IMG/VR virus record: IMGVR_UViG_3300037502_002838
Location: 1 to 28,540 of that record
Length of the DNA stretch: 28,540 bases
Source of the DNA: a virus
Reading direction: 5' to 3' (one strand)
In this document: positions 1 to 14,866 of the stretch, one piece after another
Numbering within the stretch: the first letter of the stretch is position 1
Layout: the number at the start of each line of letters is the position of its first letter
Made by a program: the position numbers and the translations under genes
Notes under the pieces: model-generated
What the model saw: the letters and a program-made list of their open reading frames with translations, nothing else
Database searches by the model: none
Told to the model about the DNA's origin: nothing

Positions 1-438
1 TCTGTGAAATTTACTTACTGCAGGGCAATATTCTTCTTTATGCCATTTTAAACTACGACTCATATTTGTAGTCATATGCACACTAGTATAATTTGTATTT
101 TCAACATCATTGTTTAAATGCTGTAGTATATCAATATACCCTGGATGAAATGTTGGCTCGCCGCCGCTAAGACTAAAATGAAAACTATTGAATCCTCTTT
201 CTCTAGCCTGACGTTTTATTTCATCTATAGTTAATAAACATAATTCAGTGGGTCTATGATCCTTTTTATCACTACGAGCATATGGCCAACAGTAACTACA
301 CTTATAATTACAGAATCTACCCAATAACCAACTTACCGTAAAAAGGTCACGATATAACATTGTGCGTTGTCCAACACGTACAATATCATCATATGGTATT
401 TGTGTAAAGTCATAAGCTGATTTTGCTAAATCACTCAT
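1..438 (-). CDS. Radical SAM protein, GGEPT type (partial, runs off the window)
   Basis: The first 146 codons are present and the gene continues beyond base 1. The translation starts MSDLAKSAYDF. It carries the radical-SAM motif CX3CX2C at C43, C47 and C50 (FCNYKCSYC), followed by SGGEPTFHPGY, the SAM-binding GGEP strand. This should be an enzyme that cleaves S-adenosylmethionine with a [4Fe-4S] cluster; the substrate is unknown. Its nearest relative in the window is the 236-aa protein at 4296-5006 (LGRRCNYDCSYC, TGGEPT), so the missing part may include a cysteine-rich C-terminal domain like the one at 3856-4299. The ATG at 436-438 overlaps the upstream stop by 8 nt, the same overlap seen at several other junctions of this operon. 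The family call is firm; the role is not known. Confidence 0.9.
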   Translation of the reverse strand, partial: MSDLAKSAYDFTQIPYDDIVRVGQRTMLYRDLFTVSWLLGRFCNYKCSYCWPYARSDKKDHRPTELCLLTIDEIKRQARERGFNSFHFSLSGGEPTFHPGYIDILQHLNNDVENTNYTSVHMTTNMSRSLKWHKEEYCPAVSKFHR

Positions 439-742
439 AATAAGTTTTCACCATTTCGTAAAGTTCTGGATTTATATATGCCCAATTTTCATTTCTAATA
501 TCGTTTATCTTTTTATCATTTTTTATAAAAATATTAAAATCACCAGTTTTTGATAACTCATCTTCTAATATTTTCAAAAAAGGCACTGCGGTATGTTTAG
601 TCCATAATTCAAATAATTTTTTAATTTCTATCTTAGCATTTTCAGGCAAGTGTCGTGGACGCATCCAATCTGGACCATCTACTAAAACATATTCATGACG
701 AATTTTAGGAAAATTATCTTTTAAAAAATTTGAAAGTTTATC
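431..742 (-). pseudogene. Orphaned C-terminal part of the interrupted N-twitch radical SAM gene
   Basis: This stretch continues the frame of the gene at 743-1543 directly after its TAA stop (743-745) and stays open for 103 codons to a TGA at 431-433. It looks like the missing C-terminus of that protein. It contains DGPDWMRPRHLP, resembling HLNVRVLP/HLNVKVLP in the intact paralogues. It ends in a segment (DIRNENWAYINPELYEM) matching paralogue ends such as DKIRDEKLLEVEPKFKDY. An internal ATG at 662-664 could start a 77-aa protein, but no convincing ribosome binding site precedes it. Readthrough of the TAA, a genuine nonsense mutation, or a sequencing error (TTA to TAA is one base) would each explain it. 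Confidence 0.75.
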
Positions 743-1543
743 TTAATGATTAATATTGTATATACTAGCAACAGAATGAACTTTAATATCTTCTTTAAAA
801 TTTTCAGTAAACCAATTAATATTTTCTAAAACGTTATCCCATTTACTTCCTTTTCTCAGAAAATTATTCAACTCACCATAAGCATCAATACTTAAATTAA
901 TGTGACATTCTTTACATTCTTTTAAAAGATCAAATAATTCTTGATTGGGTTTCAAGGTAGTATTTGTTGTTAAAAGGACTCTTAGGTTCTTTCTGTTGCA
1001 TCTTTTTAAAACATTGATAAATTTTGGCTGTTCCATTAAAGGTTCCCCGCCAATTAATTTCATTAAAGTGAGCTCCGAAAGATCATACCCATCTAGCACT
1101 GTTTCCTGATTTAAAATACCTTTATAAATTGGCATCCCTAATGCTTTCGCATCAGCATACCAGCTTGTACTTAATTCTGGATTACACATTCTACATTTGT
1201 TATTACATGTGTTACTAAGAGCTAAATCTAAGTATTTTATTTTTGATTCTTTGATAGGCTTAGTTGGTATATTAAAATTTTCTGCGTTATTAAGAAAAAA
1301 CATTCTAGTACTGTGACCTGTTTTTTCCTCATTAGTATAACATTTATTGCACCCAGGAACTGATTCATTATTTCTCATCTTTTCCCGAATATCCTGCATA
1401 AACGGGTGATTAAAAACATCAGGATGATTTAAATCTAAATCATCAGGGACATGCTCCCAATCAAAAATACAACAAGGATATACTTTTCCGTTAGGACGAA
1501 CTGCCAAATGACTAAATGGTAGAGGACAAAAACTATTATTCAC
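743..1543 (-). CDS. N-twitch radical SAM protein, interrupted by in-frame TAA
   Basis: The first 266 residues carry an N-terminal twitch/SPASM-like cysteine domain (C6, C24, C25, C65, C68) and then the radical-SAM motif CX3CX2C (C113, C117, C120), followed by IGGEPL. This is the 'twitch domain first' arrangement known for a family of radical SAM proteins in bacteria and phages. Paralogues here are 420-470 aa. This one stops after SIYNINH, just where they continue (for example TAYNVNHMIDF), and the same frame stays open after the stop to position 431. As read, it lacks the end of the barrel and the C-terminal tail. The start codon overlaps the upstream gene by 8 nt. It may be inactive, or may be rescued by readthrough. 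Confidence 0.85.
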   Translation of the reverse strand: MNNSFCPLPFSHLAVRPNGKVYPCCIFDWEHVPDDLDLNHPDVFNHPFMQDIREKMRNNESVPGCNKCYTNEEKTGHSTRMFFLNNAENFNIPTKPIKESKIKYLDLALSNTCNNKCRMCNPELSTSWYADAKALGMPIYKGILNQETVLDGYDLSELTLMKLIGGEPLMEQPKFINVLKRCNRKNLRVLLTTNTTLKPNQELFDLLKECKECHINLSIDAYGELNNFLRKGSKWDNVLENINWFTENFKEDIKVHSVASIYNINH

Positions 1544-2801
1544 TGTCGAGCCATTCCACTAATATTGGATCTAAATAATCTCTAAAATTTTGATTTCGTG
1601 CCATATCAAAAAGCTCACACTCATCTTTTACTTTTTGTCTGTTTTCATTGTTATTTTTGATAGCATCATCTATTTGTAATAAAAGATTAACTACGTCTCC
1701 GTCCTCTAGACCGTTGTCTCTAAACCTGTGTTTGTTTATTCTTTGTTTAGCTAACTCTAAAAGTTCTTTTGATAGATGTTTTATTGCTATACCTCTGTCT
1801 CGACTGTACACTTCTGAAAATTGACAACAAACTCCAGGGTATAACTTTTTAGCCCAGGTTAAATATTCATCTAAATTTAAAATATTATGGGCAGTTACCA
1901 CTGTTACAAAATTTAAAATCGGATCATAATTACGTACATTTTCTATATAATTTTTTACACTAATTTCGAGATCTGAAAATTTACTAGGAAATCTAATAAA
2001 TTCATAAACTTTTTCGATTCCATCAATACTAAAAGTATGCTTGTTTTTTTTAAAATTATTAATTAGACTTATATTATTATCATCAAATTGTGTTGCATTG
2101 GTATGAAAGATTAGTGTAGTATTTTTAGCATCGTCATTACGTACATATTGATATAATAATTGTATAACTTTATTATCATAAAATGGTTCTCCACCTGATG
2201 CCTTTAATACTTTAATTTTGTCAGTATTCTGTAACAGCCATTCCCATTGAAATGATTTTGTGGCTTCAATTGATACCGGTTTACTTTTTCCATCTACAAT
2301 AAATTCTATTCTACCCCACCGATCTGTAACTTTTGAAACTTTGTCTAATAGATTATTTTTATCAAAATATTGATGATCAGCCATCAACTGATGACTGGCT
2401 GTAGGCGTACACATCCTGCATCTTAAATTACAAACATTTGATGCTGTGATATCAATTACAGATAGCCCATCGTCATCATATCCAAAATTCTCATCACTAT
2501 ACAGTCTAAAGGAGTTCAGTCCTCTGTCTTCTTGATCCCAACAAACTTTACAGGCTTCATCTCTTATGCCTTTAGATAAATTATCTCTAAGTTGTTGCAT
2601 CCTAGGATGATCGTACATTTCTTGAGGTGTTAAATTAGTTGGATCAATTTCTAATGGATTTATATACTTTGGATTTTTATGAGTGTAATTTCCCATCATA
2701 CAGCAAGGCCAAAATGCTAGTAATTTTTTCCCTCGCCATTCTTTAATGGCGATTTCTCTAAAAGGATGTTTACAGTAAGTATTATTTTTTTCTGGTTTCA
2801 T
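1536..2801 (-). CDS. N-twitch radical SAM protein
   Basis: This 421-aa protein has an N-terminal auxiliary Fe-S domain (C10, C33, C34, C84, C87), then CX3CX2C at C124, C128 and C131 (VCNLRCRMC), then SGGEPF and a C-terminal tail ending near LDPILVEWLD. It is expected to be a SAM-dependent radical enzyme with one catalytic and one auxiliary cluster; the substrate is unknown. I chose the ATG at 2799-2801. It lies 1 nt after the upstream stop and puts the YCKHPF motif near the N-terminus as in the paralogues. A start at 2855 is open but would overlap the upstream gene by 53 nt. The gene overlaps the next one by 8 nt. Confidence 0.92.
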   Translation of the reverse strand: MKPEKNNTYCKHPFREIAIKEWRGKKLLAFWPCCMMGNYTHKNPKYINPLEIDPTNLTPQEMYDHPRMQQLRDNLSKGIRDEACKVCWDQEDRGLNSFRLYSDENFGYDDDGLSVIDITASNVCNLRCRMCTPTASHQLMADHQYFDKNNLLDKVSKVTDRWGRIEFIVDGKSKPVSIEATKSFQWEWLLQNTDKIKVLKASGGEPFYDNKVIQLLYQYVRNDDAKNTTLIFHTNATQFDDNNISLINNFKKNKHTFSIDGIEKVYEFIRFPSKFSDLEISVKNYIENVRNYDPILNFVTVVTAHNILNLDEYLTWAKKLYPGVCCQFSEVYSRDRGIAIKHLSKELLELAKQRINKHRFRDNGLEDGDVVNLLLQIDDAIKNNNENRQKVKDECELFDMARNQNFRDYLDPILVEWLDSE

Positions 2802-2802
2802 A

Positions 2803-3135
2803 TTAATGTCTTTCTTCGGGCCAATCATCTCTGCCTGCCATGTGTTTTTCTTCAATTCCTACACCACAAACATTTTTACATCTTTGTGGGCAATTACCAG
2901 AATTAAAATTATCAACATTTAATATAGTAAACATAGTTTTCTTAATAGTTTCCATATCGTGTTTTTTTAAGTCGTTCCAATCGGGTGTCAGAGCTTTAAA
3001 TCTCTCATCATCCCATGGGTTTACTTCATAATTCGCATGGTACGCACAGCAGGGATACACTTTCAATGTTGCTGACACATCTAATTCGTCCCATCTATCT
3101 GATGCATAATCATATGCTGAACATCTTACTTGCAT
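2803..3135 (-). CDS. Stand-alone SPASM/twitch-like cysteine domain (partner of the preceding radical SAM core)
   Basis: This 110-aa protein has no radical-SAM core but carries the cysteine pattern of an auxiliary Fe-S domain: C5, then YPCC (C29, C30), then CPQRCKNVC (C82, C86, C90). The same order (C, PCC, C-x3-C near the end) forms the C-termini of the radical SAM proteins at 9883-10935 and 10932-12098. The upstream gene at 3138-3815 is a 225-aa radical SAM core lacking this part, so the two look like one enzyme encoded in two pieces. I chose the ATG at 3133-3135, 2 nt after the upstream stop; a TTG at 3148-3150 is also open. The two genes are in different frames. A natural split or a frameshift in a fused gene would both fit. 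Confidence 0.82.
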   Translation of the reverse strand: MQVRCSAYDYASDRWDELDVSATLKVYPCCAYHANYEVNPWDDERFKALTPDWNDLKKHDMETIKKTMFTILNVDNFNSGNCPQRCKNVCGVGIEEKHMAGRDDWPEERH

Positions 3136-3137
3136 AA

Positions 3138-3815
3138 TTAATTCACCCAAAAAGTATCAAAAATAATACGATACGAAGTATTTTTATATTTTTTTGAAAT
3201 ATTTACATACTCGTCATAATCACTTTTTGTAATTCTATTAACCCCAAAACGACTTGGTCTCAAATTACATCTCAAATTCAATAGTAAATTGTGCTGTGCT
3301 GCTAACTTGATTACATCTTCTATTTCATGTTTATTATGTTCAAAAATAGTATAGTCCCATATAGCCTTATTATGTTTAGCCATTGAAAACATATTTTTAA
3401 ATGCTAACTCTGTGTTTACATTAATTCTATATTTGTTATTAATTTCATGAGTCAACCCATCAATACCAAATCGTATAGTTATAGAATTGTTAGTTTCAGC
3501 AACATATTTGAAAAACTCATCCCTTTTTACTCCACCATTGGAATATATTGTAAGCTGTTTAAAACTGTTATTGGCAATCTCTGCAAACTCTTTTATTTTA
3601 GGGTGCATTAGGGGATCACCAAATTCACCGCAGAAATAACAAATATAATTCTTATATATTTCCTTATCTCTTTCTACGATACGTTTAAACTCTTCAAAAT
3701 CCATATGTGTAAGTTTGAGCCCGTTTGTTAATTCAAGATATTTGTCTTGATCGAATCTTTTACACGTTGGACATTTAGCATTACAATAGTTTGTTATATT
3801 AAAATCTATTATCAT
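3138..3815 (-). CDS. Radical SAM core protein, GDP type, lacking its C-terminal cysteine domain
   Basis: This 225-aa protein has CX3CX2C at C11, C15 and C18 (YCNAKCPTC) and FCGEFGDPLMHP in place of the usual GGEP strand. That variant is shared with the proteins at 9883-10935 and 10932-12098. The barrel continues through IRFGIDGLTHEINNKYR, which parallels the SIDG/CVDG...YR region of those two. It ends at DTFWVN, where the relatives run on into an auxiliary cluster domain; here that domain is the separate gene at 2803-3135. The size is close to QueE, but QueE does not carry this motif set. A 40-nt gap, one of the few in the operon, precedes the start, with A/T-rich sequence that contains no promoter I would trust. 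Confidence 0.9.
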   Translation of the reverse strand: MIIDFNITNYCNAKCPTCKRFDQDKYLELTNGLKLTHMDFEEFKRIVERDKEIYKNYICYFCGEFGDPLMHPKIKEFAEIANNSFKQLTIYSNGGVKRDEFFKYVAETNNSITIRFGIDGLTHEINNKYRINVNTELAFKNMFSMAKHNKAIWDYTIFEHNKHEIEDVIKLAAQHNLLLNLRCNLRPSRFGVNRITKSDYDEYVNISKKYKNTSYRIIFDTFWVN

Positions 3816-3855
3816 AAATTATCTTTTTAAAATTTTTTATAGTATGCTCACATCT

Positions 3856-4299
3856 TCATTTTATTTCTTTAAGAAAAATAGGTTTAAGTACAGAAGTATC
3901 AAAATGATTTTTAACTACATCTAAATAATTTTCTTGATACTTACTTTTAGGTGCACAAAGTCCACACCCACAAGTATGTTTGGGGCAAACTATAGTTGGC
4001 ATGGTTCCATTTTTTAAATTGCGTTCTAATTCTTCAAGAATCTTATCACCTTCACTTAGTTTTCCTATAGGTCCGCGTGTTTCACCAAACTGTGCTTGAC
4101 ATGTTTGATGATGAAATACACTATCAGTCTGTTGCTCGATATGCATGAAAAACCAATTGACGCTACAGTACCAACCTTTAAATTCTCTGTAGTCAACAAA
4201 TTTACTTTTTCTGGATTCACCTTCGTTGTAGAGACACATGGTTCTACTACCACAACACGGCCTTCCAATTTTTAGTGCTAATTCTTTTTCGTCACTCAT
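3856..4299 (-). CDS. Cysteine-rich SPASM-like auxiliary domain protein
   Basis: This 147-aa protein has nine cysteines: PCCGSRTMC at residues 14-22, C45, C67, and a C-terminal cluster CPKHTCGCGLC at 105-115. It has no radical-SAM core. The ATG overlaps the stop of the radical SAM gene at 4296-5006 in an ATGA, giving translational coupling. The likely role is to hold one or two auxiliary Fe-S clusters for that core, as the C-terminal domain of a SPASM-type enzyme would. It could also be read as the second half of a fused gene broken by a one-base shift at the ATGA. The cysteine pattern is clear; the partnership is inferred from position. Confidence 0.82.
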   Translation of the reverse strand: MSDEKELALKIGRPCCGSRTMCLYNEGESRKSKFVDYREFKGWYCSVNWFFMHIEQQTDSVFHHQTCQAQFGETRGPIGKLSEGDKILEELERNLKNGTMPTIVCPKHTCGCGLCAPKSKYQENYLDVVKNHFDTSVLKPIFLKEIK

Positions 4300-5006
4300 G
4301 CTTCTTGAACCTTCTTTGTATTATTGGTCCAATAGTCTTTAAACCATTGTGTCTGTTCCTTAGTATACATATGTGCAAAATTACTTTTACTATCTGGTTC
4401 TTCACCAATAATTCTGGGAACATATTTAATATCATGTTCATCTAAAAACTCACATACCTTAATACACTCACCAAAATAACCTGCATGAAACATGACGTTG
4501 ATACTCATAGTGCATTTATGCTGTGGGCCATATGTATGAAATTGTACCATACGATCTTTTACTTGATTTTTCAATCTGTCATCAGCTTCGGCGTGATAAC
4601 TTATTGTTATATGATCTAAATTTTCCATTACCTGTGTGGCCATTTTTTCACTCATTGCTCCATTGCTTGTTAATGCAAAACTACATTCATAACGATGTTT
4701 GTATTTTTCATTATAGGTATCTTTTAGATACTTAATAAATGGAATAAAATTAGGATTAACTGTAGGCTCCCCACCAGTAAAACTTATACTAGCTCTTTTG
4801 TAATCCCTATATGTCATATACAAATCTATATACTTCAAGACAAAATCACTATTTTTTATCAAATCTTCCAAGCTGGCGTGTGGACTAAAATTATCATGTC
4901 TATGTGCCGGACAATAACTGCAATCATAATTGCACCTGCGCCCAAGATCCCAAGTGACTTGAAATACATTTCCATCAAGTAAATCTACAGTATCAAAACT
5001 AGCCAT
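4296..5006 (-). CDS. Radical SAM core protein, GGEPT type
   Basis: This 236-aa protein has CX3CX2C at C25, C29 and C32 (RRCNYDCSYC), then FTGGEPTVNPNF for SAM binding and SYHAEADDRLKNQVKDR in the later barrel. It is short for a SPASM-type enzyme, and the cysteine-rich domain expected after it is encoded by the overlapping gene at 3856-4299. It resembles the partial protein at 1-438 in spacing and motif. The start overlaps the upstream gene by 8 nt. The substrate is unknown. Confidence 0.92.
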   Translation of the reverse strand: MASFDTVDLLDGNVFQVTWDLGRRCNYDCSYCPAHRHDNFSPHASLEDLIKNSDFVLKYIDLYMTYRDYKRASISFTGGEPTVNPNFIPFIKYLKDTYNEKYKHRYECSFALTSNGAMSEKMATQVMENLDHITISYHAEADDRLKNQVKDRMVQFHTYGPQHKCTMSINVMFHAGYFGECIKVCEFLDEHDIKYVPRIIGEEPDSKSNFAHMYTKEQTQWFKDYWTNNTKKVQEA

Positions 5007-6303
5007 TTATATAATCCTTAAACTTGGGTTCTACTTCAAGTAATTTTTCATCACGTATTTTATCAAGATCCATTGTATATTTGACAAATTCGTTCCAATG
5101 AGTAGCATAATAACTTTCACTATTCATATAACTAGCCACACCTTTAGCAATATCAGTAGCCTGTTTAATTACATGTTCATTATAATTGTTATTCTTAACC
5201 CACTGAACAAAATCTTGTAATCGTTGCGTGACTTCTTTTTTGTATTGATCAGGTAATACCCTAACATTCAAATGCTTAGGGTGGTGTGCCACATGATGTG
5301 TTATAATCGGACGTTTATTTGTAAAATTTATTTTCCTAAAATTAGCATCTTTTAACTTCCACATCATAAAATCAATCATATGGTTGACATTGTAAGCCGT
5401 AACTGTAAACGCTAACCATCCAAAAATGTTATCAGGCAACTGATCTATTTTACGTAAATTGTTTAAAGTTTTTTCCCACTTAGCTGGGCTTCGTTGATAC
5501 TCTTGCATACTGCCCATACCATCAACACTTGCCCCAACACGTACTTGCTTAAAATGCTTCCACAATTCAGTAACTCTTGTAGGTAGTGTACTCATATTTG
5601 TGTTGTATTCTACAATTATATTTTTAGCCGCATCTTTTTCTACACAACGTTCTAAAAAATCATAGTGTCTTTCTATCAGCATTGGTTCACCACCAGCAAA
5701 ATATACATGTTGGATATTATGAATATTTGCTTCTAATTGTTCCCAAAAAGGTTCATATTCTGGCCAATTAAACGCTGGAACATTTCCGTCTACAATTTCC
5801 ATTACTCCGCTAGTATCTTTAAATCTATTACTGCCAGTTAATTTAATCCAATCTTCATACCATGCGTTGCTGTCTGTTGGACCACACATACGACATTTTA
5901 AATTACAAAAATTACCAAATCGCAAATCGTAATATACTACAGGAAAATCATCTGGATTAATGCTTCCATCAGATTTAGTTTTTTGTCTAACTTCATCAAT
6001 GTTCATTTGCCATTGTTCATTTTCATATGTACGTCTACTAATTAATCCGGCTGCTTCTTCATTTCTACAACGACCACATTCATCGTTCCATACACCGTTT
6101 AACATATTAAGACGTATAGTTTTCATCATTGTGTTATTACGTGCATCTAACAATGAGTCTTTTCCAGCATTATAAGCAACACCGTCAGCTTTGCGTATTA
6201 CTCCTTGATTCTTAGTTACGTTAGCTTGACAACAGACTCTAAGATCCCCATTAGCTCTGATAGCTTGAAAGTTCCAGGGGATAGGACAAAAAGTATTAGA
6301 CAT
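4999..6303 (-). CDS. N-twitch radical SAM protein
   Basis: This 434-aa protein starts MSNTFCPIPW, with N-domain cysteines C6, C24, C25, C76 and C79, followed by the radical-SAM motif C133, C137, C140 (FCNLKCRMC) and FAGGEPM. It has the fuller form of the family: a SVDGM segment, TAYNVNH in the late barrel, HLNVRVLP, and the tail DKIRDEKLLEVEPKFKDY. It is the closest paralogue in layout to the protein at 8483-9886. It overlaps the QueC-like gene upstream and the radical SAM gene downstream by 8 nt each. It should be a radical enzyme with an auxiliary cluster; the substrate is unknown. Confidence 0.94.
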   Translation of the reverse strand: MSNTFCPIPWNFQAIRANGDLRVCCQANVTKNQGVIRKADGVAYNAGKDSLLDARNNTMMKTIRLNMLNGVWNDECGRCRNEEAAGLISRRTYENEQWQMNIDEVRQKTKSDGSINPDDFPVVYYDLRFGNFCNLKCRMCGPTDSNAWYEDWIKLTGSNRFKDTSGVMEIVDGNVPAFNWPEYEPFWEQLEANIHNIQHVYFAGGEPMLIERHYDFLERCVEKDAAKNIIVEYNTNMSTLPTRVTELWKHFKQVRVGASVDGMGSMQEYQRSPAKWEKTLNNLRKIDQLPDNIFGWLAFTVTAYNVNHMIDFMMWKLKDANFRKINFTNKRPIITHHVAHHPKHLNVRVLPDQYKKEVTQRLQDFVQWVKNNNYNEHVIKQATDIAKGVASYMNSESYYATHWNEFVKYTMDLDKIRDEKLLEVEPKFKDYING

Positions 6304-7162
6304 TTGTTATCTTTTCCAAAGTCTCATCTAACTTTGATAGTGCCCAATTACGTTCTAAACACCAAAAACAAGTTTCACATTCTGGAATAGCCATTCCAGG
6401 TGTATAATCTTTATAACTAGGGACTACATCCTTAATATTTTTATGTGTTATATCGCCTTCACAACTTCTAGTTAAATTAAACAAATCAATAATATCAAAG
6501 TAATAATACTGAGCGACGATCCAAGATTTATCAACGAACCTGAATGGATGGCATAAAAATTTACCATCTGAGTGTATTATCAAGTCAACCAGTGTTCCTG
6601 CACTTGCCGGTTTTTCTCGTTCTTTCATTTTTTTAGGAAAATCTGTTCCAGGTGGATTTGCACTTGTCCCATTAAATACTGCATTAAAATTGTATTTAAA
6701 TGTAGTATACAAATTAAAACCAGACACTTGTAATTGATCACCACTTCGATCTTCGTTATAAACTGGGTCCTTATAGATATATCCTGAAACACCATGTTCA
6801 ATTTCTGGAGTTATAAAATTTTCGTGTCGTTCATTAATGATGTTGGGAAACATATTTTTTAACTTATTATAAACACTTATGCCTATTGATCCTTGCCAAG
6901 GTCTGGTAGTCCAACATCTCACATGAGATATAAAATCAATTTTGCAATCAAAGTCATTATCAGTAATTATTTTGCAAAGAAGATAAGTTAGACATGCACT
7001 ATCGGCACCACCCGATACATTTACAGCAATGCGTTTCCATTTATCTGAAAAGGGAATGTCAAGTCCGTTTATTCTAAATAACGAAATTCCATGATTTAAC
7101 GCAATTGATTGCTGTGCTGATGTTGTTGTACTATATATTTTATTTGACTCAGTAAACATCAT
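6296..7162 (-). CDS. QueC-like PP-loop ATPase (ATP pyrophosphatase)
   Basis: This 288-aa protein has the PP-loop SGGADS at residues 50-55, which binds ATP for adenylation chemistry. Near the C-terminus it has C234 (TRSCEGD) followed by CETCFWCLER (C262, C265, C268). This SC...CxxCxxCxER arrangement is the zinc-site pattern of QueC, 7-cyano-7-deazaguanine synthase, and HPFRFVDKSWIV sits where QueC proteins have their conserved PL...TK segment. The middle is unlike ordinary QueC and about 50 residues longer than usual. The gene lies between two N-twitch radical SAM genes and overlaps both. No GTP cyclohydrolase, QueD, recognisable QueE or DpdA gene is in the window, so amidation or thiolation of another substrate is as likely as 7-deazaguanine synthesis. 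Confidence 0.82.
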   Translation of the reverse strand: MMFTESNKIYSTTTSAQQSIALNHGISLFRINGLDIPFSDKWKRIAVNVSGGADSACLTYLLCKIITDNDFDCKIDFISHVRCWTTRPWQGSIGISVYNKLKNMFPNIINERHENFITPEIEHGVSGYIYKDPVYNEDRSGDQLQVSGFNLYTTFKYNFNAVFNGTSANPPGTDFPKKMKEREKPASAGTLVDLIIHSDGKFLCHPFRFVDKSWIVAQYYYFDIIDLFNLTRSCEGDITHKNIKDVVPSYKDYTPGMAIPECETCFWCLERNWALSKLDETLEKITNV

Positions 7163-8490
7163 TCTACTCGCTCTATTCTATCATGAACAAATTTGTATTT
7201 TTTCATATGATCGTTAAAATTTTGTTGCCAAATAGCATCCGATTTTCTTATATAAACTAAGAATGCTTCCCATTCACTGTCCTTACAATCGTGATTGAAA
7301 ACGTAATGTTCAATTTCTTTTAATGCCTTTAAAGCAGTTCTAATATCGGAAAATTCACGCAAGTTTGGATTATAAGATTTTCTGTGCTTATGAATATCTA
7401 AATTATTCAACCTTTTAGTATTTTCATCATTTATAATTTTGTAAGTTTTTTGAATGTCATTAAAAACTTGTTCTTTAAAATGTTTCGCCATTAATGCAGG
7501 ATTCATATATCTAGGCGTATATACTATGGATGATTCTATATAATCCACATCAAGTGTAAGAAAAGATTCAAATACATTTTCGATATCCATTATTTGATAG
7601 GCGCTAGTTGTACAAACTACACCCAACTTACAGTTTTTATTAGCTGCTCTAAATTTCTCTAAATTAGATTTAAGTATATGCCAATTTCCTGTTCTAAAAT
7701 AAGGATAGATATTGGTGCCTGCATCTAAACTAATGTGTATTAGGCTATTACCAAATTTGTCTAATAAATCAGATAACTCTATAGGATCAAACTTTGTGTT
7801 AAAATTACTGTGAAAAGTTAAGCTGATATTTTTAGCATTAGGATGATTAGACAATAATTTTAAGCAAGGAAAAAACTGTTTCTGATAAAGAACTTCTCCT
7901 CCTGCAAAATCAACTTTTCTTAAATTAGGAAAATATACGATTAAGTCGTTAACAATCGTTTCCATTTCTTCAATAGATATTGACATAGATAAATCTTCAT
8001 CTGGTGTCAATTTATGAAATGTTCTTGTTAATTGTACTAATTTGTGTTTACGATCTTCTTCATCAGGTTGATAATGTTTTAGCTTACTAACCCAACCACT
8101 TGAATAAACATCGCTGCAATGTAAACAAGCCATATTACAAGCATTACTAAAACGTAATTCAATGTGCTGAATCAGATTTAAATCAACTTCGCCTGTTTCT
8201 GAATTATAATGTTCTAAATCTTCTTTATTCACTGGGAAATCTTGACGCATCGATGGACTACCAATTTGTTCTGCTTCTTTACAAAGGTGACAGCCTTTTG
8301 GCCAAATTCCTGACATCAAATCTTGTCTGTGTTTTTTAAAATTTTCCGAATTAATAATTTCAGATGGTTTTATTACATTTGAATTTTTATAGACATGAAG
8401 TTGGTCACTCTGCTGCGGGCAACTGGTGACAAAGCCATTTTTATAATTAATAGCTCCTAGAGAATAGGGACATAATATTTGATTAGCCAT
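7159..8490 (-). CDS. N-twitch radical SAM protein (divergent)
   Basis: This 443-aa protein has a radical-SAM motif at C118, C122 and C125 (ACNMACLHC). The SAM-binding strand reads FAGGEVLY, with Val instead of Pro. Its N-terminal domain has just four cysteines (C7, C24, C67, C70), the minimum to ligate one [4Fe-4S] cluster; the CC pair of the paralogues is reduced to one Cys followed by Pro. The tail (QQNFNDHMKKYKFVHDR) is divergent from the other four copies. It overlaps its upstream neighbour by 8 nt and the QueC-like gene by 4 nt. It is the most diverged N-twitch member here, so it probably acts on a different substrate. Confidence 0.92.
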   Translation of the reverse strand: MANQILCPYSLGAINYKNGFVTSCPQQSDQLHVYKNSNVIKPSEIINSENFKKHRQDLMSGIWPKGCHLCKEAEQIGSPSMRQDFPVNKEDLEHYNSETGEVDLNLIQHIELRFSNACNMACLHCSDVYSSGWVSKLKHYQPDEEDRKHKLVQLTRTFHKLTPDEDLSMSISIEEMETIVNDLIVYFPNLRKVDFAGGEVLYQKQFFPCLKLLSNHPNAKNISLTFHSNFNTKFDPIELSDLLDKFGNSLIHISLDAGTNIYPYFRTGNWHILKSNLEKFRAANKNCKLGVVCTTSAYQIMDIENVFESFLTLDVDYIESSIVYTPRYMNPALMAKHFKEQVFNDIQKTYKIINDENTKRLNNLDIHKHRKSYNPNLREFSDIRTALKALKEIEHYVFNHDCKDSEWEAFLVYIRKSDAIWQQNFNDHMKKYKFVHDRIERVE

Positions 8491-9886
8491 TAAATATGTT
8501 CTTCATGTCAGGAAATGTTTCTGCAAAACTAATACCACGTTGTGCATCACATAAATCTAAAAATTCTTTCATTTCTGGTAATCGAACACTCCAATCTTCG
8601 CTTTCCATAAATTTAAGCATGCCTTCTAATCTATCAATACCATAACCTGCATTACGCCATTGCTCATAAGTGACTTTGTCTTTGTGCCATTCTGGTATAC
8701 CTTTTTCCCAGTTAGTTTCCCACCAAGGATAAAAATCTTCGTATTTTTGTCTGCATTTTTCTTTGAACCACTTGGGTAATACTTTTACATTTAAATGCGG
8801 TGGATGATATACAAAATGATAATTTACACCGCCTGCACCAAATGGCCACATATTGACTTTCTTGAATCCCTGCTGTAATTTCCACTTGATAAAATCAGGA
8901 ATATAATATATGTTTAGAGCCTGTACAGCACAGGCCACAGTTACCTCTGTGTTATTGGGTGTTTGCGTATCTAATATATGAAACACTTCTGCTGTACGAC
9001 TCCATTTGCTAGGATAGCGTATATAATCATTCATCTCGTGTATGCTATCAACACTGTAATGAAAACGAACTAGTTTGAAGTGTTTCCACAAATCAAACAA
9101 ATCTTCTCGCCACTCTACCCCGTTACTATTATAGCGTAATTCTAAATTTTTTGCATGTCCTTGACGTATACATTCTTCCAAAATTTCGTAATGTTCTTCA
9201 ATAATAAGACTTTCACCACCAGCAAAATATAACTGTTGCATATTTGGTATTTGATCATAGAACTGTTGCCAAAACACTGGATTATTCTTATGCCAATTGT
9301 AACTGCTACCATTAGTAGATCCTTTGTTGGCCCACATAGTAGTTTGTTTTAGTGTTGGATTTTCTATCTGTGGATGTATAGCTTGCCAATCTTTGATCCA
9401 TCCGCTGCTATCATGCGGACTACACATTACACAAGCCAATTGACATTTAGTTCCGAATCTTAGATCAATGTAACTCAACTTGGGCGGTATTGATCCGTCA
9501 GGTGCTGTATCAGCAATTAACTGAGCTAAGTCTACACGATCCATCCAATAGGCAGTTTCCCACATTCTTTTGCTTTTGTGTCCGGCTGCTTCTTCTTTAT
9601 AGCATTTAGTACAACTAGGTGGCTGTTCTCCAGTAAGCATCTGCTTACGTACATTCTTCATATAATTGCTGTTCCAACTGCTTAAAAAGTCACTTACATT
9701 TAAATTACTAGGCTTTCCCTCGTCTGTTTTTAATATGCCTACCATTCCACCGTGTTTTTTATCGTTAGTAGGTCCCACGCTGCTGGCGTTTGCTGTACAG
9801 CAAACACGCATACTACCATCAGGTCGTGTACTTAAATGTACCCATGGTAAAATGCAAAATGTTTCAGATGGTATTTTAGTGGTCAT
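8483..9886 (-). CDS. N-twitch radical SAM protein (longest copy)
   Basis: This 467-aa protein has an N-domain with FCILPW (C11), RVCC (C29, C30) and CTKC (C92, C95), then radical-SAM C148, C152, C155 (KCQLACVMC) and FAGGESL, with Ser replacing Pro. The late barrel includes SVDSIHEMNDYIRYP. The region HPPHLNVKVLP and the end GISFAETFPDMKNIF match the family tail. It shares layout and length with the protein at 4999-6303, including the W-rich N-to-core linker. It overlaps the upstream gene by an ATGA and the downstream one by 8 nt. It is expected to be a radical enzyme of unknown substrate. Confidence 0.94.
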   Translation of the reverse strand: MTTKIPSETFCILPWVHLSTRPDGSMRVCCTANASSVGPTNDKKHGGMVGILKTDEGKPSNLNVSDFLSSWNSNYMKNVRKQMLTGEQPPSCTKCYKEEAAGHKSKRMWETAYWMDRVDLAQLIADTAPDGSIPPKLSYIDLRFGTKCQLACVMCSPHDSSGWIKDWQAIHPQIENPTLKQTTMWANKGSTNGSSYNWHKNNPVFWQQFYDQIPNMQQLYFAGGESLIIEEHYEILEECIRQGHAKNLELRYNSNGVEWREDLFDLWKHFKLVRFHYSVDSIHEMNDYIRYPSKWSRTAEVFHILDTQTPNNTEVTVACAVQALNIYYIPDFIKWKLQQGFKKVNMWPFGAGGVNYHFVYHPPHLNVKVLPKWFKEKCRQKYEDFYPWWETNWEKGIPEWHKDKVTYEQWRNAGYGIDRLEGMLKFMESEDWSVRLPEMKEFLDLCDAQRGISFAETFPDMKNIFNG

Positions 9887-10935
9887 TTAAATTTAATCTC
9901 ATTTTGATATGCTTTGTTTTTTGCGCATGTACGAATACATCTATCTAGATGTTTGCTGTGTGCTGGATCCCAACTAAGAGCAAGTACTTCGTCAAACCAT
10001 ATATTTTGTAAAACATCATTTATAGATTTGGTTGTTAAACAATTCCAGCCTTGCTCATATTCTTCAAGTTTTTCTCTAATATTTTCTTTGTTTTTAAAAT
10101 AACTGTCCCATAAAAAACAACAAGGCCACATAGTTTGATCAGCTGCAATAAAAATTTCGCCTTCGTGAACTAATTTACAAACGATTGAATTTAATATTTC
10201 TTGTGTTTGTTCTTGTTTCGGATTTTCAATAAATTTTTGTAATTCAATCACTTCCTGTTTTTTACTATGTTCTTTTTCACCAGTAGTAGTAATTACAACT
10301 TCTTCCTTTACAACACGTTTTTTTACACCGTCTTTTTTACGTACAACTGCTATCCAATCATGTATACTATTTCTCATGCCGGTTCTAGTAGCAAATTTAA
10401 ATCCTAAACGTTTGGCATGCTCTTCTGCTAATGGCAATTCATATTCGTTGTGATCAAAAACTATAAACATCCAAGTACCAGTCCCACCAGCTCTTGCATA
10501 GGATTCCATGTTACGTTCTATAACATCAAATACTGTGTTTACTCTGTAGATATGATTAGTTTCTCTGTATCCATCAACACAAAATACCACATCAACTTTT
10601 CTTGTTCTATTGCTTAGTGCGCCTAGACGATGCCACCAGTCAGCAGTCTGTATTCCACCATTAGTGCTAAGTTGACAATATCCGCCAAACGATGTTAGAT
10701 ACTCCACCATATCAATACATTCGTTGTTAAAAGCCGGATCACCCAATACTCCACAAAATTTAAATTGTTTGTCTTTAATGTGTTTAGGCGTGGGAAATAT
10801 TCGTTTTATATCATCTAAAGTGATACTGTGTATTTCTAATATGTCAGGATTTTGTGTTCTAGCACATCCGGGACAGGCAGCATTACAATTACTTGTAATT
10901 TCTAATTCAATTTTTTTAATGTTATCAATATTCAT
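9883..10935 (-). CDS. Radical SAM protein, GDP type, with C-terminal auxiliary cysteine domain
   Basis: This 350-aa protein has CX3CX2C at C17, C21 and C24 (NCNAACPGC), FCGVLGDPAF as the SAM strand and CVDGYRETNHIYR in the barrel. The C-terminal domain carries VCKLVHEGEIFIAA, then MWPCCF, then CIRTC, a SPASM/twitch-like cysteine pattern. Between core and C-domain lies a charged linker (about residues 195-235) rich in Lys, Glu and Val. The core resembles the protein at 10932-12098, its immediate upstream neighbour, and the two probably arose by tandem duplication. The ATGA overlaps on both sides suggest coupled translation. Confidence 0.93.
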   Translation of the reverse strand: MNIDNIKKIELEITSNCNAACPGCARTQNPDILEIHSITLDDIKRIFPTPKHIKDKQFKFCGVLGDPAFNNECIDMVEYLTSFGGYCQLSTNGGIQTADWWHRLGALSNRTRKVDVVFCVDGYRETNHIYRVNTVFDVIERNMESYARAGGTGTWMFIVFDHNEYELPLAEEHAKRLGFKFATRTGMRNSIHDWIAVVRKKDGVKKRVVKEEVVITTTGEKEHSKKQEVIELQKFIENPKQEQTQEILNSIVCKLVHEGEIFIAADQTMWPCCFLWDSYFKNKENIREKLEEYEQGWNCLTTKSINDVLQNIWFDEVLALSWDPAHSKHLDRCIRTCAKNKAYQNEIKFK

Positions 10936-12098
10936 TTAAATTGTCCCGCAAAAGCATCGTATTTGGACCCGCAAACTTTGGCGCAAACTGCTAATTTTCC
11001 ATCCGCACAACTGGGTTTGTCCCAGCTTTCGGGAATAACTTTTTGAAAATATACACCATCGACGATTCGTTCTAAATTGTTTATTTTTGCGTTAATATTA
11101 TCTTTTCCTACTTGATCAATAGCTTGCCAAATTTGAGATGCTTCTGGTTTATAATACCAAACATACATCTGACCTGCTGTCCAACAACAGGGTTGAACAA
11201 TGCCTTCAGCACTAATATATAGCGATTTCTCCTCCGCTACCTTGCATTTTATGACAGCAGAATCCAATTCTTTTTCTAAATTAGATTTATTTTCTGGATT
11301 TAAATTAAATTTTTGAATACCTTGAACTGCAAGTGCGTCTGATTGCTTAGAAGGTAAAAACTTGATTGTTTCTTCTTTACCGACAACTTTGCTTATTTGA
11401 TCTAGAACACTGTTTCGATATTTTGGGTTTGTGGGTGCTTGTAAAAGTGTCGATGTGCCTTTTCTGTTCATAGCTTGGTGCATTTCTTTGGTCACACCGC
11501 TAGCATTACTGAAAAATCTTGCACTTTTTTTGTATTGAAACTTTTCAAAACCCATAGACTTACTCAGTGCTTCTGCTTCTTCAACTTGATGTTCGTTATG
11601 TGCAAAAACGATATAGTCCCATCGGGCTCTTCCGCCAGCGTTGATGAAGGCTTTTGCGTTTTCCATTATTTTAAGCCATATAGTATTTTGTCTATACAAG
11701 TGATTGGTATCTTCTAATCCATCAATACTAAAAACTACATATGCGTTTTTACCTAAAATTTGCGCCAATTTTTTCCACCATTCGGGACGTTTAGCACTGC
11801 CATTGGTATACATAGTCAAATTCATTTTAGAATTGTTTGCTCTAAAATATTCAAATACTTCTAATGTATCTGCGGCGGCGACTGGGTCTCCATAATTGCC
11901 GCACATATACATTCTATCCAGCTGTTGTATAAATTCAGGGAGAAAAATTCTTTTGCAATCTTCTAATGTAAGTTCATTATCTTTCAAATAGGGATTATCT
12001 TCACCGCCGTTAATATTTCTAGCACACATAGGACAACTAGCATTACATCTTTCAGTAATTTCTAAATGCACTGTTCTAATATCTTTGTACTGATACAT
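10932..12098 (-). CDS. Radical SAM protein, GDP type, with C-terminal auxiliary cysteine domain
   Basis: This 388-aa protein has CX3CX2C at C18, C22 and C25 (RCNASCPMC), MCGNYGDPVAA as the SAM strand and SIDGLEDTNHLYRQN in the barrel. Its C-terminal domain includes IKCKVAEEKSLYIS, QPCCW, and CADGKLAVCAKVC. It is the first radical SAM gene in the transcription order. It directly follows the 74-aa gene, whose stop overlaps its ATG by one base. The combination of core and auxiliary domain is that of enzymes that modify peptides or small molecules by radical chemistry; nothing here shows which. Confidence 0.93.
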   Translation of the reverse strand: MYQYKDIRTVHLEITERCNASCPMCARNINGGEDNPYLKDNELTLEDCKRIFLPEFIQQLDRMYMCGNYGDPVAAADTLEVFEYFRANNSKMNLTMYTNGSAKRPEWWKKLAQILGKNAYVVFSIDGLEDTNHLYRQNTIWLKIMENAKAFINAGGRARWDYIVFAHNEHQVEEAEALSKSMGFEKFQYKKSARFFSNASGVTKEMHQAMNRKGTSTLLQAPTNPKYRNSVLDQISKVVGKEETIKFLPSKQSDALAVQGIQKFNLNPENKSNLEKELDSAVIKCKVAEEKSLYISAEGIVQPCCWTAGQMYVWYYKPEASQIWQAIDQVGKDNINAKINNLERIVDGVYFQKVIPESWDKPSCADGKLAVCAKVCGSKYDAFAGQFK

Positions 12099-12322
12099 TA
12101 TTTTAAAATTAAATTTATGTCCCTACCTGGACCAACTTGACTGGGTAATCCACCATATTCGTTCATATACCATTTAATAACTGCTTTGTACCAATTTTGA
12201 CTATTATGATGTGCTTCCTTATTAAAACGGCTGATATTATTATTCGTGGCCTCCATAGTGGCCAAAGCTCTAGCACTTTCTTTTTGTAACTCGCGCATTT
12301 CCATATTATCCAGATCAATCAT
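12098..12322 (-). CDS. Small hypothetical protein (74 aa), possible partner or substrate of the radical SAM enzymes
   Basis: I do not recognise a known domain. The sequence is charged and probably helical over its first two thirds (RELQKESARALATMEATN...), then turns into W/Y-rich WYKAVIKWYMNEYGG and a Gly/Pro tail ending GPGRDINLILK. It has no cysteine, signal peptide or membrane segment. It is locked between the methyltransferase-like gene (ATGA overlap) and the first radical SAM gene (TAATG overlap), so it is a real translated unit. The length and the position beside a radical SAM gene would suit a modified peptide or a peptide-binding helper, but that is inference only. Confidence 0.75.
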   Translation of the reverse strand: MIDLDNMEMRELQKESARALATMEATNNNISRFNKEAHHNSQNWYKAVIKWYMNEYGGLPSQVGPGRDINLILK

Positions 12323-13266
12323 GGTTTACCTATTAGCATAACACGTTTATATCCTGAAAGTTGCAGTTCCCCTTCAAATAATATTTCTTTCATAGGAAAC
12401 TTTTTTTTCATATGATCTATACTATGTACACAATTAACATGTTCAGGAATATCAAATAAATTATTACTTTGTATAGCAACTATAGGCGGAGAATCCATGC
12501 TCTTATGTCTTATCCTATTAAACCAATCTTCTGTCATATGTTCAGAACTTGAATTTATAACTAAGTTAGGTAAAAATTTTTCAGTAAATGTTGCCCCTGT
12601 TTTAAAATTTTCTATAGGCAACTCATATCCGTTTTTATGTAATACAGTTTCATTAATATCGGAAACTACAGATTTTACTGAATATTCTGCAAGTTTATCA
12701 TAATTAAAAAACGTATCACTGACTTGGCAAGCTGTTTTATCTATATCTAATAAACGAATTTTTTTATATCCGATATCATCAAGTATATCATCAAAATAAA
12801 AAACTATTTGCCCATACCAACTACCAATAACTAAAATATTATCAAAAAAGATATTAATTTTTCTTAATTCTTTAGTCATCCATATTTTACTTTGTACTTG
12901 ACCTCTACTAAATGCATCACAAATTTCTAAATTTTCTATTGTTCCATTATAACACTTATTAATTGTTTTAAAAAGTTTATAATCAGCAAAAATTTTGCTC
13001 AATGTAGAACTAATCTCTTTAAGTTTTAAATTATCGTTAGAATTAGCAGTATGAGCATAAAAATTTATTAGATGCTGTACATCATCTCTATTAAAGTTAT
13101 TGGGTAATGCCTCCATAAAGACATTTTTTAAACTGTGTCCTTTATTTTCTGAATAAAGAACTTTTAAAAATCTAGCGCAGTGATCCGCCACTTGATGCTG
13201 TTGTTTAAATCTAAAATAATCTTCTAGACCGTGTAGCCAACTAACACTGTTTACATTACTTTCCAT
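12319..13266 (-). CDS. Class I SAM-dependent methyltransferase-like protein
   Basis: In this 315-aa protein the segment at residues 143-153 (NILVIGSWYGQ) has the shape of motif I of a Rossmann methyltransferase, with Ser-Trp-Tyr inside the glycine loop. It is followed by RLLDIDKTAC, where the acidic residue at the end of strand 2 (D174 or D176) would bind the SAM ribose. Later LVINSSSEHM (residues 235-244) fits the catalytic-loop region. The N-terminal 130 residues are helical and of unknown role. It overlaps the glycosyltransferase-like gene upstream by 1 nt and the 74-aa gene downstream by 4 nt. The fold call is good; the methyl acceptor is unknown. Confidence 0.78.
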   Translation of the reverse strand: MESNVNSVSWLHGLEDYFRFKQQHQVADHCARFLKVLYSENKGHSLKNVFMEALPNNFNRDDVQHLINFYAHTANSNDNLKLKEISSTLSKIFADYKLFKTINKCYNGTIENLEICDAFSRGQVQSKIWMTKELRKINIFFDNILVIGSWYGQIVFYFDDILDDIGYKKIRLLDIDKTACQVSDTFFNYDKLAEYSVKSVVSDINETVLHKNGYELPIENFKTGATFTEKFLPNLVINSSSEHMTEDWFNRIRHKSMDSPPIVAIQSNNLFDIPEHVNCVHSIDHMKKKFPMKEILFEGELQLSGYKRVMLIGKP

Positions 13267-13940
13267 TATTCGCCTTTATCAAATTTATTTTTGAGCCACT
13301 CAAAGTCATTAATTTTTTTAAGCTCAGAAAAATTATTTTTATTACTAATACCAAATTCCACACCGGCTCGAGCACCAAGAACTGCGAATTTGCCATAGTC
13401 TTTATCTTCCCCAACGGTGGTCCAAATACGTAGTCTAATATCAGTTTCGTCATTCTTTTGCCTATCAATAACTTTACTAGATAATTTAACACACTCCCTA
13501 AATGCGCTTTTCCATGTATTAAAGGGATCAGTATTAAATGCAGTGATGTTACTAATTTGTGGCATCGGTTTAAAATGATTACTAATACTTGTAGTCATAT
13601 CTGGTTTAGATGTATCCATATTAATTGTTGCTAATCTAGGAAACAATTTGACTCCGCCATAGCCATATTCCAAAGCATTGATGGGATTTTTACTTCTCCA
13701 AACATAGACAAAATCCTCTCTATCTGCAATAAAATCAAAATTAAAACTGTCAAGAATAACGGCGTCACCATCAACGACCCATATCATATTAGTAAAGCAT
13801 TGTTTAGCGGCATGGATATGCGCCTGATGTATTCCTTTGATTCCATGTACACGTTTAGCCATAGGAAATCTAGATTTCAATGCTAACCAATTTTTATCAG
13901 CATTGGGTTCATTATAACTAATAAAAATTATATCGTACAT
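13266..13940 (-). CDS. GT-A-like glycosyltransferase-family protein (short copy)
   Basis: This 224-aa protein opens with IIFISYNEPNADKNW, continues with AKRVHGIKGIHQAHIHAA and reaches WVVDGDAVI, with DGD at residues 57-59 as the metal/nucleotide-sugar motif of GT-A folds. The same opening (YLSYDEPNAEENY, KRVHGI, IVDGD) is found in the upstream neighbour at 13940-14866, so the two are tandem paralogues. This one lacks the long C-terminal extension. It should transfer a sugar from a nucleotide donor; the acceptor is unknown. It is joined to its neighbours by TAATG overlaps. Confidence 0.8.
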   Translation of the reverse strand: MYDIIFISYNEPNADKNWLALKSRFPMAKRVHGIKGIHQAHIHAAKQCFTNMIWVVDGDAVILDSFNFDFIADREDFVYVWRSKNPINALEYGYGGVKLFPRLATINMDTSKPDMTTSISNHFKPMPQISNITAFNTDPFNTWKSAFRECVKLSSKVIDRQKNDETDIRLRIWTTVGEDKDYGKFAVLGARAGVEFGISNKNNFSELKKINDFEWLKNKFDKGE

Positions 13941-14866
13941 TAATTACTCACGACTGCATTATTTTTCATCCTAGGAGGATTAGTATACATAGCTTTAAAC
14001 ATTTTACTCTGCGCTGAAGTAAAAACATCAGCCATATCTAAACCGATACCAGACTTTAATTTTTCCCCGAGTTTCTCAACCTCTATCATTAAGTTGTTTT
14101 CATCTTGATTTACGTATTGTTTCCAATATTCATTAAGCCACTTGAAATCCCTGACGTTTAAAAGATCCCAATCGGTACAATTAGTTAGATAACAGCCTTG
14201 TCTTGCACCATACATTGCCCATAGCCCATTATCAACGTCATTGCCTATGTGCATCCATATCATCAATCTATGAAAATTTTTCCAATGAATTAATTTTGCT
14301 AGTTGCCCTGAATCTGCCAACTTGGACCCCTCAAGCAAACTCATTTTGACACCTTCACGAAATCCTGCACGCCAGGCTTGCTGTGGACTAGCATTATTAT
14401 AGACATCGCTCATACACTCATCTATTTGAATATAATTAATATCCCAACAAAAATCAACTTGTGTTTTTGGATTATTAGGGTCAGCATTTTCATGAGTTTT
14501 CATATCTAATATAAGTTGAGTTGGCCAGCATTTAATCCCACCATTGCCATATATCAAACCATTGATAATGTTCTTTGCTCCCCAACTAATTACTACTTTG
14601 TTCATATCAACTGTATCATCTTTAAAAGAAACACGTTGTTCTATCAAATTAGGTTTAACAATGTTATCGCCATCAACAATGACTACTCGTTCAGTATCGG
14701 CAATTTTTGCACAGGCTTTGTGAGCAGCATCACTCCCGTATATACCATGAACACGTTTAGCCCACGGCACTTTAGTCACCAAGTCTGCATAGTTTTCTTC
14801 TGCATTAGGTTCATCATAGCTGAGATAAATCACATCACAATCTATAATTTTAATAGTTTTACTCAT
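13940..14866 (-). CDS. GT-A-like glycosyltransferase-family protein (long copy)
   Basis: This 308-aa protein starts with DVIYLSYDEPNAEENYADL, then AKRVHGIYGSDAAHKA and VVIVDGDNIV, with D65-G-D67 as the DXD-type motif. Conserved blocks YGNGGIKCWP and AWRAGFREGVKMSL have counterparts in the 224-aa paralogue (YGYGGVKLFP, TWKSAFRECVKLSS). A C-terminal region of about 60 residues is extra and carries no motif I recognise. The paralogous pair may act in sequence on one acceptor. It has an ATGA overlap with the upstream gene. Confidence 0.8.
   Translation of the reverse strand: MSKTIKIIDCDVIYLSYDEPNAEENYADLVTKVPWAKRVHGIYGSDAAHKACAKIADTERVVIVDGDNIVKPNLIEQRVSFKDDTVDMNKVVISWGAKNIINGLIYGNGGIKCWPTQLILDMKTHENADPNNPKTQVDFCWDINYIQIDECMSDVYNNASPQQAWRAGFREGVKMSLLEGSKLADSGQLAKLIHWKNFHRLMIWMHIGNDVDNGLWAMYGARQGCYLTNCTDWDLLNVRDFKWLNEYWKQYVNQDENNLMIEVEKLGEKLKSGIGLDMADVFTSAQSKMFKAMYTNPPRMKNNAVVSN

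Follow-up and report, generated by a model that had tools for sequence, protein, structure and literature searches.

Radical SAM enzymes of the SPASM/Twitch type whose structures have been solved carry their auxiliary domain in one chain with the core. In the virus record analysed here (28.5 kb; the whole stretch of 28,540 nucleotides is called the window below), the two parts appear to lie on two adjoining genes, and a sequence-only reading of this DNA had proposed that they make up a two-subunit radical SAM enzyme, a rare form. The locus raises the question whether the small cysteine-rich gene really is the missing auxiliary domain, whether the separation is genuine, and whether both products belong to one enzyme.

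The radical SAM locus of the window

Read from 28 kb downward, the window contains tail-type genes (T4 gp9/10-like N-terminus, subtilase, tail collar), then unassigned genes and finally, at 12.1-0.7 kb, a radical SAM cluster whose genes all lie on the minus strand. The features are as follows.

743..12098, minus strand: radical SAM gene cluster, by profile matches; holds the split pair, a second split, two fused paralogues, N_Twi_rSAM genes and a PP-loop protein
3138..3815, minus strand: radical SAM core, putative core subunit of the split pair, 225 aa; CxxxCxxC at C11/C15/C18, Pfam Radical_SAM match, split clade in the tree
3136..3137, minus strand: 2-nt gap from the core stop to the auxiliary ATG; the frame differs
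2803..3135, minus strand: SPASM/Twitch-like auxiliary Fe-S domain, putative subunit, 110 aa; C5, P28-C29-C30, C86 and C90, homology to fused C-terminal tails
4296..5006, minus strand: core half of the second split radical SAM protein, 236 aa; aligned to the N-terminal region of unsplit proteins in the relatives L004 and L005
3856..4299, minus strand: cysteine-rich half of the second split, 147 aa (GRPCCGSR..CGCGLCAPKS); aligned to the C-terminal region of these L004/L005 proteins
743-1543, 1536-2855, 4999-6303, 7159-8490 and 8483-9886, minus strand: five N_Twi_rSAM (NF033640) genes, over the cut-off
6296-7162, minus strand: PP-loop protein within the cluster
9883..10935, minus strand: fused paralogue, core plus C-terminal auxiliary domain, 350 aa; core and auxiliary profiles both match
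10932..12098, minus strand: fused paralogue of the same build, 388 aa; core and auxiliary profiles both match

L numbers denote loci of relatives on other viral contigs. The 225-aa core at 3138-3815 and the 110-aa gene 2 nt downstream in another frame are both present, as the sequence-only reading had it; they lie on the minus strand. The auxiliary frame is open from a TTG at 3150, but the start common to the relatives is the ATG at 3135.

A core without tail and a tail without core

The window core passes the Pfam Radical_SAM profile (PF04055, E=5e-11, 43.4 bits against a cut-off of 29.5) and ends right after the barrel. Its CxxxCxxC motif is invariant in 24 and in 71 aligned rows, and 32 residues are invariant across 24 split cores. 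The protein would thus bind the SAM-cleaving [4Fe-4S] cluster, a prediction that takes the motif from the sequence and the chemistry from the family. With 25.8 bits against 170, it stays below the cut-off of NF033640, the family with a twitch domain N-terminal to the radical SAM core, whose members are found in the same phage clusters, are fused and are larger than the split core. Its best matches among isolate phages (CP220, F379 and Pelagibacter phage Mosig) are none of them close. Of 78 candidates that a pattern-based scan of 84,980 prokaryotic genomes drew with the core alignment, none was confirmed, which leaves room for cellular homologues; the auxiliary alignment varied too much to be used in this way.

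In the small protein, C5, C29, C30, C86 and C90 are invariant across 23 separate auxiliary proteins; over 66 rows of fused and separate forms, four cysteines are invariant and the fifth is nearly so, which is enough for one cluster. MAFFT set the auxiliary rows on the CxxxCxxC region when core-only fragments were included, and the alignment was thus limited to fused and auxiliary rows. Compared profile to profile, the separate auxiliary proteins match both the C-terminal tails of fused relatives (98.8% probability, E=1e-16) and the heads at the N-terminus of L079/L082 (99.1%). The N-terminal Twitch domains of the N_Twi_rSAM proteins in the window are distant homologues and match less well (85%, E=6e-6); core controls gave 0.1-0.5%. 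The separate-auxiliary profile also matches the C-termini of the two fused paralogues in the window (E=6e-16 and 1e-13), bearing out the earlier observation that the proteins at 9883-10935 and 10932-12098 continue into a C..PCC..CxxxC domain.

The assignment to a named family is looser. The window protein gives no hit to the Pfam SPASM profile, which weakly matches 15 of 23 auxiliary relatives (best E=6.6e-4). The literal motif CX9-15GX4C occurs in 9/11 C-fused against 10/55 separate forms and is absent from the window protein, where no such G lies between C5 and C29. Because the motif is mostly lost in the separate forms, we use the label SPASM/Twitch-like and do not speak of a textbook member. 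Searches of PDB sequences with the auxiliary profile returned nothing meaningful, and 50,697 isolate phage records held no match to the auxiliary protein. Profile comparison, the four invariant cysteines and the fold modelled for a fused relative together identify the small protein as an auxiliary Fe-S domain of SPASM/Twitch-like type, and it presumably binds one [4Fe-4S] cluster via these cysteines.

One auxiliary gene for each core

Wider scans brought together more than 70 viral loci. Profile classification distinguished 70 split cores, five of them truncated at a contig end; an auxiliary gene lies close by in 64 of the 65 complete ones, and the remaining core is 93 nt from the end of its contig. 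To avoid bias from fetched flanks, both profiles were also run over 39 complete viral records totalling 2.85 Mb. In 34 of them, 50 short cores stand against 50 separate auxiliary genes and the counts match in each record, whereas the other five (5/39) have fused forms alone. Many records are near-copies of each other, and the distinct set comprises 44 single pairs and 10 double loci. Over the 44 single pairs, core and auxiliary distances correlate with r 0.87 (permutation maximum 0.23), a value inflated by shared genome history. Both genes are under purifying selection in most pairs, nonsynonymous change being well below synonymous change in each; comparisons involving the window are near saturation.

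What the sequence-only reading called a rare form is thus the rule in this phage family, while its two-gene interpretation gains from pairing and homology. Some relatives show further arrangements. Three distinct core/auxiliary pairs stand in tandem at L049:1842-5037 and L064:1840-5004, with a radical SAM/SPASM fusion gene after them. At L046:3332-4714 and L055:3332-4666 the split core has an added N-terminal domain (in L046 a 2OG-Fe(II) oxygenase, PF13640, E=1e-4) and the auxiliary gene still is separate. The radical SAM load can be very high, with 17 matches in L052 (46.5-kb contig) and 16 in L019 (151-kb contig).

Junctions, gene orders and fusions

Junctions between adjacent partners range from -40 to +244 nt, many being overlaps of 4 to 17 nt, and both other frames are used (26 vs 23). 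The one in-frame case is L052, in which two consecutive TAA codons separate core and auxiliary gene. The closest relatives of the window pair are split as well, with a 1-nt gap in L004, a 4-nt overlap in L005 and, in L006, two cores ahead of a pair of small genes; since these junctions and frames differ, no single indel, such as one restoring a common frame in the window, explains the split.

The order of the genes varies, too. The auxiliary gene precedes the core in L017-L020, and ten double loci read core1-core2-auxA-auxB. By comparison with the single pairs, core1 of these loci tracks auxB, two genes off (r 0.80-0.92), over the nearer auxA (0.32-0.67). In L017, close relatives of core1 and auxB of L015 (distances 0.15 and 0.13) lie side by side in swapped order.

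A search for homologues covering both genes found the auxiliary domain fused C-terminally in 11 distinct proteins and N-terminally in the L079-L083 group. Reversed fusions, auxiliary domain before core, lie at L079:4952-5956 and L082:4950-5876, immediately after an ordinary split pair. Far from all relatives being fused, 58 of 58 split cores fall in one part of a tree of 71 cores and the 11 C-fused proteins in another (100/98), the root position not being fixed; the two N-fused proteins branch among the split cores, next to that of L079. Given this grouping, the fission (or C-fusion) requires one event and the reversed re-fusion a second, later one. Occurring separate, C-fused, N-fused and reordered, the auxiliary domain shows itself to be a mobile module.

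Structure models of a relative

Evidence on the fold comes from the relative L052, which was modelled. Its natural fusion (312 aa; pLDDT 79, pTM 0.80) aligns over most of its length with SuiB, BlsE, SkfB, anSMEcpe, MoaA, PqqE and BtrN at Z 16-19. The separate pair of L052 was modelled as one artificial chain with the two TAA codons read as Gly, which gave pLDDT 84 and pTM 0.70, most of the auxiliary region lying at 85-97; no estimate of inter-domain error accompanies this model. This joined chain aligns with BlsE over residues 1-350 (Z 15.4, 245 residues, most of them core) and with anSMEcpe, ChlB and PqqE over 1-351, strong matches to radical SAM structures that fit a partial TIM barrel. The joined model agrees with a SPASM/Twitch-like docking but is no more than suggestive of it.

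A probable two-subunit enzyme and the alternatives

We consider it likely that the two genes encode two subunits, presumably obligate ones, of a single Twitch-type radical SAM enzyme. Core and auxiliary gene would be expressed from one operon, their stop and start codons often overlapping, and the 110-aa chain would hold one [4Fe-4S] cluster and close off the core's open barrel in a physical complex, as the fused domain does in relatives. The nearest competitor is a dedicated but transient partner, transferring electrons or presenting the substrate and docking at turnover like an exchangeable ferredoxin. A separate chain and the moderate confidence of the docking in the joined model suit such a partner, and PapB offers a precedent for intermolecular electron transfer (PMC10470005); the strict 1:1 gene counts and the fusions in both orders, however, favour a fixed subunit, and we regard transient docking as unlikely. 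Less likely still is that the auxiliary chains are exchangeable, one core serving more than one auxiliary chain in phages with two or three pairs. If true, a few genes would yield several enzymes, and the split would allow the auxiliary cluster to be swapped or reloaded.

Programmed frameshifting could join core and auxiliary domain into one long protein, and the many overlaps of 4 to 17 nt would invite it, but overlap lengths and frames differ, L052 is in frame across two TAA codons, and the partners cannot be joined at all where the order is auxiliary-core or core-core-auxiliary-auxiliary. A single frameshift product was rejected, as frames and gene orders vary between loci, and we hold frameshifting to be very improbable. 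Equally slight is the chance that the core acts on the small protein as its peptide substrate: a small cysteine-rich gene adjoining a radical SAM gene is reminiscent of ribosomal peptide pathways, yet this domain matches SPASM/Twitch domains and occurs as a fusion to either end of cores, and all four key cysteines are invariant. An assembly or sequencing error within one intact gene could be suspected in a metagenomic contig, the more so as the window gene at 743-1543 has an in-frame stop; with 58 tree cores split on independent contigs and at different junctions, its probability is close to nil.

Relation to known systems

Like BlsE, BtrN, SuiB, SkfB, anSMEcpe, PqqE and MoaA, the pair combines a CxxxCxxC core with a cysteine-rich auxiliary domain after it; it differs from the structurally solved SPASM/Twitch enzymes in the separate gene, the variable order and the wider cysteine spacing. 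Separate accessory proteins of radical SAM enzymes are familiar from maturases with discrete or fused RRE/PqqD partners, but the RRE binds the peptide and carries no cluster. The bacterial GeoRSP system has a stand-alone SPASM protein, and its radical SAM enzyme has a SPASM domain of its own.

The window belongs to the same type of island in tailed phages as the radical SAM clusters of T4-like phages. Twelve radical SAM genes are described in marine viral genomes (PMC5332604), 11-12 in the Campylobacter phages CP220 and CPt10 (PMC2853527), and others in the host-recognition cluster cassettes of pelagimyophages (PMC7029224); the available sections of these three papers do not mention a two-gene core/auxiliary arrangement. 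A literature search, with preprints and subscription papers mostly outside its scope, retrieved no radical SAM enzyme described as split, two-subunit or heterodimeric. T4-like phages are already known to carry radical SAM islands; of a separate, obligately paired auxiliary cluster gene we found no account in this search. In this family of bacterial viruses, what normally is a single enzyme would consistently be made as a matched core and iron-sulfur partner. The role of the auxiliary clusters in SPASM/Twitch enzymes has been called largely enigmatic, and PapB indicates that radical SAM enzymes with auxiliary clusters can require intermolecular electron transfer (PMC10470005). A natural enzyme with this cluster on its own protein would permit loading, reduction, removal or exchange of one cluster independently of the other, and would make the role of the auxiliary cluster directly testable.

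Neighbouring genes and possible function

An amidinotransferase resembling the inosamine-phosphate amidinotransferase StrB1 (E=2e-84) adjoins a split pair at L021:6726-7739, and a second amidinotransferase lies beside the pair at L019:4687-5703 (E=3e-14). The L021 gene falls into PHROG 25854, annotated as of unknown function, although its product closely resembles the streptomycin-biosynthesis enzyme StrB1. As far as the available text reports, the radical SAM clusters of CP220 contain amidinotransferases as well (PMC2853527). Further genes near pairs in relatives encode a nucleotidyltransferase (NTP_transferase), a UDP-glucose/GDP-mannose dehydrogenase (UDPG_MGDP_dh) and a 2OG-Fe oxygenase of the sporadic carbohydrate cluster (SpoChoClust). 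These sugar-pathway neighbours, genes of other phages, lead to the guess of a sugar or sugar-nucleotide substrate, on which the pair might perform a dehydrogenation, an epimerisation or another radical step; in the window itself, the identified neighbour is the PP-loop protein and the rest are unassigned. Tailoring of sugars or aminocyclitols is a tentative proposal, to which we give somewhat less than even chances. It would point to a little-studied, possibly sugar-directed chemistry in phages with up to 17 radical SAM genes per contig. The neighbours c7, c8 and c13 look glycosyltransferase-like or SGNH-like by eye, and a PDB search returned no relatives of them.

A second split and other genes of the window

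Besides the conservation of the split in relatives, a second split radical SAM protein in the window goes beyond the sequence-only reading. Its halves (5006-4296 and 4299-3856) overlap by ATGA, and their counterparts in L004 and L005 are single proteins of 388/397 aa, with a linker longer than that of the window. Apparently, this is a recent fission, given fused relatives; it may also be an assembly error.

The N_Twi_rSAM gene at 743-1543 (minus strand) stops at an in-frame TAA (..SIYNINH, stop, DKLSNF..) that is not present in relatives, of which L004, L005 and L008 have intact homologues of 371-404 aa. Past the TAA, this frame has no further stop until about 437 and its sequence still matches (431-740, minus strand); the stop may be a nonsense mutation, an error or a case of recoding. 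The PP-loop ATPase-like protein (SGGxDS; 6296-7162, minus strand) recurs in these clusters (L005:927-1814, L007:703-1536); it has a cysteine-rich end in relatives, and its matches to TilS/ATP_bind_3 are weak. Three mutually related genes at 12319-14866 (minus strand) are also present in L046, L047, L055 and L087; a PDB search found no relative of them, and their consensus AHK..A..VD.D suggests a glycosyltransferase.
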